A program made the position numbers and the translations under genes. Under the pieces are notes generated by a model. The model made no database searches and was not told the DNA's origin. It saw nothing but the letters and a program-made list of their open reading frames with translations. DNA of 55,629 nt from a virus. The stretch covers positions 1 to 55,629 of IMG/VR virus record IMGVR_UViG_3300037247_000947; one strand, given 5' to 3'. Within the stretch, counting starts at the first letter, position 1; every line of letters begins with the position of its first letter. This document shows positions 25,027 through 31,895 of this stretch, in pieces.

Positions 25027-27087
25027 CTATGCAGGAATTGGAAGAATCTTGTGATAAAGTTTCAGAGCAATCAAGTTAGTATCCTTGGAGTCAATCGACT
25101 CAAGAGTAAGTTTTGCATTTCTCCCTTTCCCTCCTTTGGCAATCTTCTTATGACCGGACTGGAAACCAAACGAACTTGACCCCCAGTTAAAGTTCCCCCA
25201 TGTCCCCTGACCCCAAATCAACCATGTACTATCAATTGCAACCGTTCCGGAACCAAGGATAAACTGTTTAGTCCTTTCAAACTCGTTATCATTAAACGAC
25301 ACGGTCGTCTCCATTGTAATTCCTGACGACTCGGCAATCAGCGAAAGTGAATTGACCAGTTTCTCGCTCCACTCGTGACCAAAGTGAATATCTCCCGTTG
25401 CGAGTTGTGTATTGATATTATAAGATGTCGAAGCATCATATTCAGTCTTATTGATAAAGTCCGCCGACCCCGCAAAGTCATGTTCCATAATATACTTGTT
25501 AGTATTATCAGCGGAATACAACCCACCGTCAAATGACTGCAAGTCATTGGCGCTCCAGTTAAGGGAAGTCCAGCCTCCCGTTTGTCCTTGCAACAACATC
25601 CTTGTTCCGTTCTTCACATCCCAGACTATCGTAGCAGTATTAACAGTCTGGTTAGGTCCTGTTATTGAAAGGTAGTACCTGTCCTTGTGAAACTTTCCGA
25701 TAGACTTGTCTCGATAGGCCACGGGGATAGCGGCAATCTTATCTCTAATCGGGTCTCCTACAGGCCACGGCAAATCACCGGTAGTAGGATTGAAGCTATT
25801 AAAGTTGGCCCAATAGATATTCCCATCAAATTGCCACATCAAACCATTTCCGACATCGACAATAGAGGTAAAGGAATCACAACCTATCTCGCAAACCTTT
25901 ACCGGCTTGGGATACTTGTCAACATCTCCCTCCGGCGTTACATATATCTGCTCCTCGGTAAACCAGTAGACATCTTTGCGAAAGGCAACAGGGCCAACCA
26001 GAGGGTCAGGGAAGTATGCAAAGTTTTCAGCGGGGAAGAAATCAGGATTTCCCTTCCTCGAATAAACTCCTTTGTTCGTCAGTGCCCCTGACGAGTTAAT
26101 CCCTATCCCCCATAGCCTCCCATCCTGTTCCAGAGGATTCTTCAATCTCGGAGGTGTCCCTGCATCTATATCAGGTTCAGCGCCTTCCTCACCGTTAGGA
26201 CGATTATCAGTATAAGTATCGCCGGAGGTGAAGAATCCGACAAACTCAAACGGTCCAGTAGCCTGCCCCGCAGGTGAGCGATAAACATTACACTTACTAA
26301 TCCCTGATGGAAAAGCACTTCCTGAAAGGTCTATATTCAGCGAACAGGCAACAGGGTTGGCGGCAGTTGCATTGCTAAGATCGGCAGAGGTCAGTGCTGC
26401 TGATGGGCCCGACTCACCATATTTTGTTGAAGTTCCACTGTCGTCATAAAAGTAAGTAAACTTGTAAGTATAGACGCCGCCGAGAGTGATTCCTCTATCG
26501 CCAGCACCGAGAGTATTATCCTCAGTTCCCGCCTCCGCTCCTTCAAAAGACGGGACAGCCAAGCCGAGCGCCGTTGAGGCAGTATCCACAGTTCCGACCC
26601 AGCGCTGAGGAGCATCTTTACCGTTGCAAAAGAGAAGGTCTTCCGCCTCATTAACACTATATTTTACAAATCTCGATATGTATCCATCGGTAAGGTCTGC
26701 CTTGATTGAAGTCCCGCCTCCCTCACCTGCCCACCTGTTGTTAGATTCATCATAAACACTAACTTCAGTATTACCTCCGTTGTCCCAACAGGCGACGCGA
26801 TAATCACTTCCTCTTAGCTCGACTATCTTGAATGACAACGGAGGAGCTGTGTTGGGAAGGATAGTATCTTCAGAAGCAACCAGCCAAGGTCGGAAAGGCC
26901 CTCGTGTAAGGAGTGTCCTGTTTGGTTGATGGTAGTAATTCAACAGAACGGTAAACTGGTCTTTCCTCAGTGCACTGGAAGGCTCGGCAGTATTCAGACC
27001 ACCTGAGAAGTCTTCTATCGAATAGGGAAGCCACTGGGTAGCTTCTTCAGTAACAGGTTGTGGTCGAAATGGAGCTGTTGTAAACAT
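25027..27087 (-). CDS. Tail hub/nozzle (DNA-stabilisation type) protein
   Basis: 686 residues. DFSGGLNT near the N-terminus and repeated YR-, WDNGG-, and GISKCNVYRS-type beta segments suit the large beta-propeller/nozzle proteins of podovirus tails (T7 gp12-like, P22 gp10-like role). It follows the two adaptor genes in gene order. The ATG has no visible ribosome binding site and lies after a terminator and an AT-rich hairpin, so its expression may be controlled apart from upstream genes. Confidence 0.6.
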   Translation of the reverse strand: MFTTAPFRPQPVTEEATQWLPYSIEDFSGGLNTAEPSSALRKDQFTVLLNYYHQPNRTLLTRGPFRPWLVASEDTILPNTAPPLSFKIVELRGSDYRVACWDNGGNTEVSVYDESNNRWAGEGGGTSIKADLTDGYISRFVKYSVNEAEDLLFCNGKDAPQRWVGTVDTASTALGLAVPSFEGAEAGTEDNTLGAGDRGITLGGVYTYKFTYFYDDSGTSTKYGESGPSAALTSADLSNATAANPVACSLNIDLSGSAFPSGISKCNVYRSPAGQATGPFEFVGFFTSGDTYTDNRPNGEEGAEPDIDAGTPPRLKNPLEQDGRLWGIGINSSGALTNKGVYSRKGNPDFFPAENFAYFPDPLVGPVAFRKDVYWFTEEQIYVTPEGDVDKYPKPVKVCEIGCDSFTSIVDVGNGLMWQFDGNIYWANFNSFNPTTGDLPWPVGDPIRDKIAAIPVAYRDKSIGKFHKDRYYLSITGPNQTVNTATIVWDVKNGTRMLLQGQTGGWTSLNWSANDLQSFDGGLYSADNTNKYIMEHDFAGSADFINKTEYDASTSYNINTQLATGDIHFGHEWSEKLVNSLSLIAESSGITMETTVSFNDNEFERTKQFILGSGTVAIDSTWLIWGQGTWGNFNWGSSSFGFQSGHKKIAKGGKGRNAKLTLESIDSKDTNLIALKLYHKILPIPA

Positions 27088-27174: not shown

Positions 27175-27208
27175 AAATAAAAAAGGCTGCCTAAGCCAAG
27201 CAGCCTTT
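27175..27208 (-). terminator. Rho-independent terminator in the virion cluster
   Basis: AAAGGCTGC (27181-27189) pairs with GCAGCCTTT (27199-27207). On the minus transcript the stem is followed by TTTTTATTT. On the plus strand it has four T, so it could work weakly both ways. It separates the upstream head/adaptor genes from the tail genes. Confidence 0.75.
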
Positions 27209-27242
27209 TAGAAAGGATACCAATATGAGTCAGTTTATTATG

Positions 27243-27326
27243 TTACTTCTTCTTTCCCTTACTGGTACTGGGTTTCTTGTGACCTGGTTTGCTCTTGTAC
27301 GTGCTTTTTCCTGATTTATGAGCCAT
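27243..27326 (-). CDS. 27-residue basic peptide
   Basis: MAHKSGKSTYKSKPGHKKPS then TSKGKKK; ten lysines. GGAGCAAATA precedes the ATG and the terminator follows the stop. Similar in style to the 26-residue peptide at 13737-13817 (MA-K..., Tyr, Lys-rich end). DNA binding or packing is conceivable. Confidence 0.5.
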   Translation of the reverse strand: MAHKSGKSTYKSKPGHKKPSTSKGKKK

Positions 27327-27376: not shown

Positions 27377-27634
27377 CTATCTTGGATAGCAAGAAGTGCC
27401 TCCATCGCATGCTTGTACTGCCTTACCAATTCTCATGCGAGCATCTTCAAGGTGGCGGTAAGCAAGCTGAATATTTGCTTGCATTTCACCTTGCTGCCCA
27501 ACGTAATTCTCATCTTTACTAAAATCACTGTGGGCTTTAAGCGTGAGGGTACTTACTTTTACTGCTTCGATTACTTTTCTAATGCTAAAACAGTTTTCCT
27601 TGAAACCCAGTTCTTGTGCTTGTGCTTCTGCCAT
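27377..27634 (-). CDS. Small helical protein resembling the Acb2/Tad1 hairpin domain
   Basis: 85 residues from the ATG after GAAAGGAAAGAAA. An N-terminal helical half and the C-terminal helix IQLAYRHLEDARMRIGKAVQ (55-74) recall the helical hairpin of phage cyclic-nucleotide sponges (Acb2, including T4 Vs.4, and Tad1), whose last helix has the pattern L-x-E/D-A-x-M with A-V later. Those proteins sequester CBASS/Thoeris signals. The match is by memory and short, so this is a candidate. It sits between an adaptor gene and the basic peptide. Confidence 0.45.
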   Translation of the reverse strand: MAEAQAQELGFKENCFSIRKVIEAVKVSTLTLKAHSDFSKDENYVGQQGEMQANIQLAYRHLEDARMRIGKAVQACDGGTSCYPR

Positions 27635-27649
27635 TTTCTTTCCTTTCAA

Positions 27650-28252
27650 TTATCTTGCATTACCTTCGAGTTTCCATTTATTCAGCGCGAACGCCGACTG
27701 CCTCAACTTCTCATACTCTCCCATGCTCTTAGCTTCCAATGTAGTATCTCTCTGGGAGGCATAACACCTTGCCATTCCATACTGAACAATCGCAGGCTTC
27801 CACTCATTGGGAAAATCAAACGTATCACTAACGGAAGACATCTCAGTAGAGAGCCTGATATAGAAAGCCTTCAAGGCATCCGAACCACTTGCACTGGTTG
27901 CTTTCAAATCAATATAAAGCACTCCTCCAAATTCATACCATGTCGTTGGAGTTCCAACACTTGCACCAAACTGATACGAAACCTCATGTCTATAAGTCCT
28001 GTAAAGTGGCACTCCTGCATACTCAATGGCAAAGATTATCAGAGGATTGGTAAGAGACGAGGACAGGGTGAATGAGAATGCCGACCCGTTGGTATCAATC
28101 GTCTGGGTATCTTGCAAACAACCGGTAGTCGCACAAAACTCTGCCGCTCCCCTGTTGATATACCTTAGAAGCTCGGTGGTACCAAAACTCACATCAGTAG
28201 TATCCTGAAGCTCATCTCTAATCTCAGCAATTACAGTTGTCCCTGTTGCCAT
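27650..28252 (-). CDS. Head-tail adaptor protein (SU10-type)
   Basis: 200 residues. The beginning IAEIRDELQDTTDVSFGTTELLRYINRGAAEF is typical of short-tailed phage adaptor proteins (helix with D-x-L then YIN). A beta-rich middle and a helical end containing AMARCYASQRDTTLEAKSMGEYEKL follow. It probably forms a ring between the portal and tail hub. TA-ATG style junction with the next gene (shared base 28252). Confidence 0.65.
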   Translation of the reverse strand: MATGTTVIAEIRDELQDTTDVSFGTTELLRYINRGAAEFCATTGCLQDTQTIDTNGSAFSFTLSSSLTNPLIIFAIEYAGVPLYRTYRHEVSYQFGASVGTPTTWYEFGGVLYIDLKATSASGSDALKAFYIRLSTEMSSVSDTFDFPNEWKPAIVQYGMARCYASQRDTTLEAKSMGEYEKLRQSAFALNKWKLEGNAR

Positions 28253-28974
28253 TAGATACTCCCGCTAATCCTTAACTCCGGTGCAACATAGCTTGTCCCT
28301 CTATTCTCTCGAAGTTGCACATGAGCAGGACCACTCCTCCCTCGTTGCTTCTCTCTAATATTCTTCAGTCTCTCCTCAAACCTCCCCTGATGTACTCTTC
28401 CATCCAATCCTAGACTTTCAAGAGCAATCGCCGTAGCCAAGCTTCTCAACATCCCGTGATACCATCCTGGAAGCACATCAGTCAAATTGGTACTAACCTC
28501 GTCCGGCATACTCTCGACCTTCAAGTTGATAGTATAAACTGCATTAGGAGTACTTCTGAGCAACATCCTCATCGTACCGGAACCGTCAGTATCAATCGCA
28601 TAGTAACTCGGATAGGTAGACTCGATGTCCTCGCCAGGATCGAAACGATAGAAGTCGGTAATCCCTCCTGAGAAATAAGTCAGGATATGTTTCTCAGCGA
28701 CAATCCTTACAGTTCCATCTATGACATTAACGACTGCCGAATCCAAGTCAACATATGCTTGACCGGCAACTGTAGCAATGGTAGTATCCGACATGATAGT
28801 CTTGGGAACATCAATACTTCTTTCGAGAGAAAAGTCAATCAAAGCCTCGTTGATGGCACCAAAGATAGCAAACCTGTCCTCAGCGGATATGAGAGCTACA
28901 TTGCCTCTCATTGCTCTGACAGTTCCTTCGATACTTCGCTGAAGGTCGTTCTTTGTCCTACTCCAAACTGCCAT
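28252..28974 (-). CDS. Second head-tail adaptor-like protein
   Basis: 240 residues, starting VWSRTKNDLQRSIEGTVRAM with AINEALIDFSLERS, the helix pattern of adaptor/connector proteins, followed by beta strands and GMLRSLATAIALESLGLDGR. Two such genes in a row is common in podovirus-like genomes with long connectors. It abuts the next gene with one shared base. Confidence 0.6.
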   Translation of the reverse strand: MAVWSRTKNDLQRSIEGTVRAMRGNVALISAEDRFAIFGAINEALIDFSLERSIDVPKTIMSDTTIATVAGQAYVDLDSAVVNVIDGTVRIVAEKHILTYFSGGITDFYRFDPGEDIESTYPSYYAIDTDGSGTMRMLLRSTPNAVYTINLKVESMPDEVSTNLTDVLPGWYHGMLRSLATAIALESLGLDGRVHQGRFEERLKNIREKQRGRSGPAHVQLRENRGTSYVAPELRISGSI

Positions 28975-29560: not shown

Positions 29561-29757
29561 TGTTTTATCTCTTTCCACTTTATCCCGAAGAAGACCCAAT
29601 GCCAGAGCCGCCACCAACAGTTAGGACGAGGCATTGTAAAACTATAGCACATATCCTCTACAATGTACATCTCAGACCTATAGACTGGAACGCTAAGAGT
29701 ACATTTATCAATGAGGAGAGGCTCATCGGGAACAATAAGTAGCTGGTCTTTACTCAC
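29557..29757 (-). CDS. Small protein with Trp-rich C-terminus
   Basis: 66 residues from a GTG overlapping the preceding stop. The end MPRPNCWWRLWHWVFFGIKW then KEIKQ is a Pro-Arg/Trp-rich amphipathic stretch that I recall from small phage proteins of unknown function, perhaps membrane-associated. Confidence 0.55.
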   Translation of the reverse strand: MSKDQLLIVPDEPLLIDKCTLSVPVYRSEMYIVEDMCYSFTMPRPNCWWRLWHWVFFGIKWKEIKQ

Positions 29758-30262
29758 CAAGTAGCTCTCTCATCTGAGCAACAGCACCTCTCTTGGCCAT
29801 TATCATATCACTCAACTGGTTGATGTTCTGCTGAAATGTTTGTCTTTTCCGAAGCAAGGTATCAAGGTCCTTTTCCTGCTCTTCAATCTTCTTCTCAATG
29901 TCAACACGGTCAATAGGTTTGGTCTCAACGTCCTTTGCTTTGTTCTCACTCGCCTTGGGACGTTTCGACTTGGGATTATCAACTACCGCTACCGGTGTTT
30001 GAGGAAACTTGATAGTCTCAATCTCGTTTCTCTCAGGAGCATTCTTCGGTGTTGCTATTACTGGAGCTATTCCACCTTGCTGGTCTGCAATCAAAACTGC
30101 CTTCGGGTCTCTCTCACCACACTTGTCACACAAATTAACTCTCTTATGCGGATACCCAGGCGTCCTTGGGTCATACTCCCTCGCCATCTCCGTAGTCTCA
30201 CATCTGTCACACTTCAACGTCATTGCTGTTTTCTCTGCTTCTTTTGGGTTTTCTTCAGTCAT
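29750..30262 (-). CDS. Zinc-finger and coiled-coil protein
   Basis: 170 residues. CDRCETTEM and LCDKCGERDPK (about 18-50) form a four-cysteine zinc site; a disordered Pro/Lys linker follows; the C-terminal 60 residues are a heptad-rich helix (IEKKIEEQEKDLDTLLRKR...). Leader TAAGGAGTTTCTGATG. It may be a virion-associated or assembly factor. Confidence 0.6.
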   Translation of the reverse strand: MTEENPKEAEKTAMTLKCDRCETTEMAREYDPRTPGYPHKRVNLCDKCGERDPKAVLIADQQGGIAPVIATPKNAPERNEIETIKFPQTPVAVVDNPKSKRPKASENKAKDVETKPIDRVDIEKKIEEQEKDLDTLLRKRQTFQQNINQLSDMIMAKRGAVAQMRELLGE

Positions 30263-30376: not shown

Positions 30377-30580
30377 TTATGCACTTGAATATGTAGTATA
30401 CGTTGGCCATGCCCAAGACCACTGACAAGGATAATGGTCGTGATGATAGTGCTCCTCTCGTATAACCTTTTCGCCAAACAAACCATCAAGGGCGTCTTTT
30501 AACTTCTTGGCTTGCTCCATAGTCAGGGTTATTTCCTTCTTGCCCAAATCCAGTACCAGCTTCTTGATGACATTAGCCAT
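30377..30580 (-). CDS. Small conserved phage protein with His-rich end
   Basis: 67 residues from the ATG after AGGGAAACAA. The front (LDLGKKEITLTMEQAKKLKD) is a strand-turn-helix I recall from short phage proteins, and the end is EEHYHHDHYPCQWSWAWP, rich in His and Trp, perhaps metal-binding. It overlaps the gene upstream by eight bases. Confidence 0.6.
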   Translation of the reverse strand: MANVIKKLVLDLGKKEITLTMEQAKKLKDALDGLFGEKVIREEHYHHDHYPCQWSWAWPTYTTYSSA

Positions 30581-31895
30581 TTGTTTCCCTTTCTTTACAG
30601 TAGTTATCAATTACCTGTGTACCTGAAAACGATTTCGGAATCGCCCACGAAGGCAACCCACCTTCAAGCACTTCGTTAATATCAACATAGTGTGTTGCAA
30701 AATTCTTCTCCACAGCTCCTGACCAAGCACACATAAGTTGCAAATGTCCTATCCAGACCTCAGCAAGAGCAACTTTTATCCCTGCCTTCTTACACTTAAT
30801 CCAAAAGTGGACATCAGCATCCTTATGCCCTCGATGCCAATCTCCTGCATCACTAGTCTTACTTTCAAACCAAGGCTTCTCCAGCTTCTCCGTCTCACTC
30901 AAGCGTATCATCGTCAGTCCAAAGTGAGCCGTATCAACATCTTTAACTCCATCAACAAACCCTCCCTTGGAAACAGTAACCATATCACCTTCAGGGTCAT
31001 TAAACATTCCTGACATTGGATATTTATTCCCTCTCCTCGCCTGGAGTGGAACCAGAATACCTACCTCTGGATGTATCTCCATCAAGCTATACAAGTCAAG
31101 AATATGATACATCGTATAGAACGTATCATAGTCTATTGCAAGTCCATACTTGTATCCTTTCTCAATCGCCTTCTCCAAGAGGTTCTCCATCCCCTGCTCC
31201 CAGAAGACGCCGCTAAACCTCTCACCATAAATCCCAAGTCCCTTGACGGCATTGATGGCCGAGAACATATTGTCAGTGAAGCAAAGGCGTGGCATCGACA
31301 TGAAGAACATCACATCTTTACTGATACTACTTTTACTTTCTTCTGTCACCGGAGGATTGACAGGAGTAGTGAGTTTCTTATTATAGGCAACAACGTTTAG
31401 GCTAATAAGCTCGTTGTCAACATCAATCTCGCTGCAATCGTGAAAGATACCCAGCTTTCTGACAACCTCACATTTGGCAAATCCAGCCTGTCTAATCATC
31501 TCGATGAGAAAGTCTTTATCAAACCCTATCTGGTGGGCATCATGTTCATCGACATGGCCCCCATAAATCATTGCAATGAATTTAACTCTCTCCTGTGGCG
31601 TATACTTCTCCTTGTCTAAAAACAACCTGCTTATGACATCAAGATTAGGGACACTCAGATACAATCGTCCTTCAGAGTCCAAGACACGTCGCCACTCCTT
31701 CAGTGCAGTCGGCATGTCCTTATAGTCAAAATGCTCAAGTACATGAGAAGCATAAACCTCCTCGAAAGTACGGTCTCTGAAACGGCTCAGGTCTTTAGCA
31801 TTACCGACATGGTCAACACCTGTCCTTGAGGCAATTGAGAATAGTTCCCAACCGTCTGCAACTACCTTGCCTCCGATATGAAGTCTTCTACTCAT
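30573..31895 (-). CDS. Methyltransferase-glycosyltransferase fusion
   Basis: 440 residues. The first ~180 (LHIGGKVVADGWELFS, EEVYASHVLEHF, EWRRVLDSEGRLYLSVPN) match class I SAM-dependent methyltransferases of the type acting on sugars. The second half (LAIDYDTFYTMYHILDLYSL, VGILVPLQARRGNKYPMSG) resembles a glycosyltransferase-like domain. Together with the FkbM-type gene nearby it may modify carbohydrate on the virion or host. The domain boundary around residues 180-200 is a Lys/Pro/Ser linker. Confidence 0.65.
   Translation of the reverse strand: MSRRLHIGGKVVADGWELFSIASRTGVDHVGNAKDLSRFRDRTFEEVYASHVLEHFDYKDMPTALKEWRRVLDSEGRLYLSVPNLDVISRLFLDKEKYTPQERVKFIAMIYGGHVDEHDAHQIGFDKDFLIEMIRQAGFAKCEVVRKLGIFHDCSEIDVDNELISLNVVAYNKKLTTPVNPPVTEESKSSISKDVMFFMSMPRLCFTDNMFSAINAVKGLGIYGERFSGVFWEQGMENLLEKAIEKGYKYGLAIDYDTFYTMYHILDLYSLMEIHPEVGILVPLQARRGNKYPMSGMFNDPEGDMVTVSKGGFVDGVKDVDTAHFGLTMIRLSETEKLEKPWFESKTSDAGDWHRGHKDADVHFWIKCKKAGIKVALAEVWIGHLQLMCAWSGAVEKNFATHYVDINEVLEGGLPSWAIPKSFSGTQVIDNYCKERETNG

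Follow-up and report, generated by a model that had tools for sequence, protein, structure and literature searches.

Does the small gene at positions 27377–27634 of the 55,629-nucleotide viral stretch analysed here (the window; IMG/VR record IMGVR_UViG_3300037247_000947) encode a sponge for cyclic-nucleotide immune signals, and is its place among virion genes unusual for such a protein? An earlier note on this DNA had proposed as much from a C-terminal helix string, HLEDARMRIGKAVQ, which corresponds to residues 61–74 of 85 in the gene product P0001 (MAEAQAQELGFKENCFSIRKVIEAVKVSTLTLKAHSDFSKDENYVGQQGEMQANIQLAYRHLEDARMRIGKAVQACDGGTSCYPR). The reading frame itself proved to be real, and its coordinates exact. 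It runs on the minus strand from 27634 to 27377, starts with ATG, and the stretch immediately 5' of this codon, GAAAGGAAAG, resembles a Shine-Dalgarno site. Comparison with the nearest relative gave a dN of 0.22 and a dS of 1.34, which indicates purifying selection. The gene was also correctly placed among virion genes, with a pair of SU10-type adaptor genes upstream and a gene for a 686-aa structural-type protein downstream; P22-type portal and terminase genes are found further upstream. The locus is thus composed of the following features:

28252–28974, minus strand: second SU10-type adaptor gene (PF24175, E 6.6e-11)
27650–28252, minus strand: SU10-type adaptor gene, upstream neighbour of the insert (PF24175, E 8e-16)
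27638–27646, minus strand: Shine-Dalgarno-like AAAGGAAAG of the 85-aa gene (sequence reading)
27377–27634, minus strand: gene of the 85-aa hairpin protein P0001 (ORF and translation, relatives, AlphaFold2 model, purifying selection)
27243–27326, minus strand: ORF of a 27-aa Lys/Ser-rich basic peptide, MAHKSGKSTYKSKPGHKKPSTSKGKKK, second gene of the cassette (sequence reading)
27181–27209, minus strand: intrinsic terminator with a 13-pair stem and a T run, end of the cassette (sequence)
25027–27087, minus strand: gene of the 686-aa virion-type protein, downstream neighbour of the insert (phrog_511 internal virion protein, E 4e-5)

Two close phages, L281 and L282, lack the P0001 gene but have retained the adaptor genes and the 686-aa gene at 60–66% identity (the last as a syntenic counterpart that is about 66% identical); as both are fragments, the gene is absent from their available parts and could lie elsewhere in their genomes. 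In L281, the two genes flanking the insertion site overlap directly. The L282 insertion site (1520–1648) holds a different tiny ORF together with its own terminator-like sequence. From the kept flanks without the gene it follows that the window carries an inserted cassette that consists of the hairpin gene, the 27-aa peptide gene and the terminator. The peptide ORF lies directly downstream of the P0001 gene and upstream of the terminator, and is preceded by GAAGGGAG, a good ribosome-binding site. Terminator-like sites occur in this region in a number near chance; the stem at the end of the cassette is long, however. The composition of the insert is not distinctive.

Some further observations concern the surroundings. 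The different ORF in L282 suggests that the end of the adaptor genes is a hotspot for small-gene insertion. The adjacent PF24175 genes (27650–28974, minus strand), kept in L281 and L282, are apparently a tandem paralogue pair. A 440-aa protein of the virion cluster (30573–31895, minus strand) features a methyltransferase-like domain followed by a glycosyltransferase-like part, and its syntenic counterpart in L281 is 65% identical. A 170-aa protein (29750–30262, minus strand) has an N-terminal CxxC zinc-ribbon-like part with a weak Lar-like match, and its L281 homologue is devoid of that part.

The earlier note had regarded the location as outside the usual region for such a gene. However, annotated Acb2 homologues elsewhere also adjoin virion genes: in Beetrevirus they lie where the head genes give way to the tail genes, a Leptolyngbya phage has one near its major capsid gene, and in a Vibrio phage the neighbour is the portal gene. 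Hence, the virion neighbourhood of P0001 is not odd.

Relatives of P0001 were found at 52 viral loci with identities of 37–73%, and P0001-like copies also occur in MAGs labelled Kiritimatiellia, Verrucomicrobia, Bacteroidetes and Fibrobacter; the isolated phage and plasmid records searched contained none. What these loci share with the window is essentially this gene, with 54 matches for P0001 and at most five for any other window protein. The genes next to the relatives are of unrelated kinds, among them methyltransferases, HNH nucleases, an Erf annealing protein, transposition genes, terminases, portals and head genes, and no fixed partner gene emerged across more than 50 loci. In the 73%-identical relative (L001), for example, the gene adjoins HNH and methyltransferase genes. 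Since more than 50 relatives occupy unrelated neighbourhoods and two close phages do without the gene, we regard P0001 as a mobile accessory gene and not as part of the virion, and a mobile accessory family of phage hairpin proteins is with high confidence the right description of the group. Two members are longer proteins with extra sequence after the hairpin (L019, 4328–5059; L042, 5004–5672), and a second GGVSCYDK tail in the L019 protein suggests a fusion or duplication.

The proposal had started from a Leu-x-Glu/Asp-Ala-x-Met spacing ascribed to Acb2 and Tad1. In T4 Vs.4 this spacing is indeed present, as LKEASM. Tad1 also has it, with Val at the Leu position (VEEALM), and in PaMx33-type Acb2 IQTGMM stands in its place. 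The called window proteins, 17,354 residues in total, contain the pattern [LIV]x[ED]AxM twice, and one of these two cases belongs to an unrelated protein of 917 aa. Because it is expected by chance about once per window, the spacing alone is weak evidence, and we rejected it as a sign of kinship. The signal above chance is the family of relatives, not the motif by itself. Within this family, helix 2 contains the core conserved stretch:

27410–27457, minus strand: RH[LIVF]ED[AC][RAS]MRxGKxxQA, helix 2, residues 60–75 (family alignment and motif-unbiased relatives)

An apparent 100% conservation of RHLEDARM was partly an artefact, because this string had served as the search pattern in two scans. 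A motif-masked scan found relatives with RHLEDAAM, RHIEDASM and RHLEDCRM; R66 then became variable, and R60, H61, E63, D64, M67 and R68 were still invariant. The alignment also shows a conserved tail, GGVSxYDK. Helix 2 carries conserved polar residues off its hydrophobic face (R60, H61, E63, D64, R68, K71 and Q74), and from these we infer that they could form, together with the GGxSxYDK tail, a candidate interface or pocket.

Among 24,736 Pfam families, the top match of P0001 was PF24729, the Acb2/Tad1 hairpin, with 16.4 bits and an E of 0.01, below the curated cut-off of 27 bits. PF24729 matched 27 of the 42 relatives scanned, and no other Pfam family matched more than two. In the best relative, the match extended from position 5 to position 56 of the 58-position profile and scored 25.9 bits (E 1.2e-5). 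Ten further relatives, most with an altered helix-2 motif, likewise had PF24729 as their first match in nine cases and as the second in one. The cut-off was reached by no match of the P0001 family; on the same score scale, T4 Vs.4 obtains 71 bits and a genuine Tad1 hairpin only 34.4 bits. The profile gave four matches across 289 genomes of one MAG phylum, one of them above cut-off, and none across 297 genomes of another. NCBIfam and PADLOC had no match for P0001, and PDB sequence searches with P0001 and with the family profile yielded chance matches only (NADH dehydrogenase subunit, syntaxin).

Profile–profile comparisons were marginal. With hhalign, the P0001 family gave a P of 0.0047 against 15 Acb2 sequences and of 0.062 against 59 Tad1-type hairpins, and the same test returned 1e-5 for Acb2 versus the Tad1-type group. 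In column shuffles against the combined superfamily profile, approximately one in 150 reached the observed score. When a home-made superfamily HMM was run on 1,728 phage ORFs, forward and reversed, P0001-family members came out first, yet near noise. Helix 2 aligns in one register, with LAYRHLEDARMRIGKAV opposite IAKTKLKEASMWACRAV of Vs.4 and opposite ALTHVEEALMWMNR of Tad1. Taken as distant homology, the kinship of the P0001 family with the Acb2/Tad1 hairpin appears to us somewhat likelier than not.

For the structure, the earlier note had called for AlphaFold and Foldseek comparisons. AlphaFold2 predicts P0001 as a two-helix antiparallel hairpin (pLDDT 90), with helix 1 at about residues 2–34 and helix 2 at 47–76. 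The expected hairpin was thus obtained, while a significant match to a solved Acb2 or Tad1 structure was not: in a Foldseek search of the whole PDB, T4 Vs.4 was at rank 2 with an E of 0.97 and a TM of 0.37, which is not significant in a test of low power, and a search of BFVD gave nothing significant. As a positive control we modelled an undisputed PF24729 member (59 bits); this model reached an E of 0.026 with its own homologue 9ptq and no better than 2.9 with Vs.4. As a true PF24729 member is almost as weak, the non-significant Foldseek result does not refute the Acb2/Tad1 idea. What stands of that idea is a distant kinship, with PF24729 as the best match for most members, the predicted hairpin and the common register; the curated cut-off, the Acb2 pocket residues and the Tad1 beta-domain do not go with it.

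Other functions must be weighed against this. P0001 might belong to the adaptor or neck region, as a minor part of the virion or in its assembly, since its gene is flanked by SU10-type adaptor genes on one side and an internal-virion-type gene on the other. However, two related phages with the same virion module (60–66% identity) do not have it, and members of the P0001 family adjoin methyltransferase, recombination and transposition genes. The absence from L281 and L282 between retained flanks led us to reject a virion part on synteny, and we consider it very improbable indeed. A phage regulator or small nucleic-acid-associated protein, involved for example in DNA modification or packaging, could act via the invariant basic and acidic residues of helix 2. 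The invariant Arg and His of this helix would suit such a role, as would the proximity of several relatives to DNA methyltransferases, HNH nucleases or terminases, but a partner gene is not fixed over more than 50 loci and profile searches with P0001 matched no DNA-binding family. This makes a regulator quite improbable.

The mobile hairpin could also inhibit a host or defence protein, such as a restriction, CRISPR or toxin component, in which case its short amphipathic helices would have come to resemble PF24729 by convergence. Any host-interaction gene might be mobile and missing from close relatives, and the marginal profile–profile scores, the missing Acb2 pocket residues and a conserved GGVSxYDK tail that has no Acb2 counterpart all agree with a protein inhibitor. 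Convergence, however, does not readily explain why PF24729 leads among all Pfam families both for the majority of members and for relatives that were found independently, and this in the same register. We hence judge an inhibitor of this kind unlikely.

The single likeliest mechanism, to which we give a probability of about 0.5, is that P0001, as a new and divergent hairpin of the Acb2/Tad1 type, serves as a sponge that sequesters a nucleotide immune signal. The block of adaptor genes would have received, at its end, a cassette made up of the 85-aa moron-like gene, the basic peptide gene and the terminator. If Acb2, Tad1 and Acb2 homologue 43 are a guide, P0001 may oligomerise through its hairpins, and the oligomer could bind and hold the nucleotide immune signal of a CBASS, Thoeris or similar system. 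With its signal held, the host effector would not be switched on. P0001 is probably a counter-defence gene, because it is an insert among virion genes, recurs in unrelated phages and encodes a hairpin distantly like the sponges. As to the signal itself, our guess slightly favours a cADPR-like ligand, since the shared E-[ED]-A-x-M pattern resembles Tad1 and the cADPR-binding hairpins more closely than Acb2.

More tentatively, the P0001 family may represent a third lineage of hairpin sponges, so far overlooked, that has spread horizontally among uncultured phages and stays below all curated cut-offs, with a different pocket (the invariant R-H-x-E-D plus the GGxSxYDK tail) and possibly a signal unlike those of Acb2 and Tad1. 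If the sponge reading is true, sponge-type counter-defence extends to phages of experimentally little-studied host groups, and current family models miss these sponges. A ligand screen could draw on the family's clear motif and its more than 50 sequences, with motif mutants as ready controls. Even if P0001 is not a sponge, it stands for a horizontally mobile phage gene family that has been repeatedly retained.

How does P0001 compare with the known hairpin sponges? Acb2 (anti-CBASS 2; T4 Vs.4; Pseudomonas PaMx33/PaMx41 Acb2; PDB 7uq2, 8h2j, 8h39) is likewise a small phage protein with two long antiparallel helices, and the T4 protein and P0001 both have L-x-[ED]-A-x-M in the C-terminal helix. 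As a hexamer, Acb2 binds cyclic di- and trinucleotides. Of the T4 Acb2 residues, F82 stacks against the ligand, and replacement of Y8 by Ala disrupts the binding of cyclic dinucleotides (PMC12657218). In our alignments, however, the Acb2 N-terminal segment I-x-GY-x(n)-N-x-x-K with its stacking Tyr (Y8) is absent from the P0001 family, and at the position of the C-terminal stacking Phe (F82) P0001 has Gln74, a residue that is Gln in 93% of the family. Moreover, P0001 differs from Acb2 by a longer inter-helix loop and the extra GGxSxYDK tail. Tad1 (Thoeris anti-defence 1; PDB 7uav, 8kbe) is built from an N-terminal antiparallel beta-sheet followed by two helices (PMC12043709). The ligands of Tad1 are gcADPR or cADPR isomers. 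Its hairpin sequence H-V-E-E-A-L-M-W-M-N-R resembles H-L-E-D-A-R-M-R-L-G-K of P0001, whereas the N-terminal beta-domain is absent from P0001, for which an all-helical model of 85 aa without any strand was obtained. Lacking counterparts of Y8 and F82 as well as the beta-domain, P0001 is neither Acb2 nor Tad1.

A stand-alone two-helix hairpin like P0001 is found in Acb2 homologue 43 (mycobacteriophage Xandras gp101 group), whose structure was solved with bound 3'cADPR (PDB 9ptq) and which demonstrates that a hairpin without the Acb2 N-terminus is able to bind a signal. Actinobacteriophages and Paenibacillus phages contribute hundreds of proteins, annotated as hypothetical, to the 9ptq group. Members of this group have an invariant RE...EEAMFWAN...R pattern and an N-terminal F..H segment, from which P0001 differs (hhalign P 0.06). 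Both share an R in helix 1 and L-E-[ED]-A in helix 2, and E-[ED]-A in helix 2 is common to Tad1, the hairpin-only group and the P0001 family. The hairpin-only homologue 43 is thus the nearest workable precedent for P0001.
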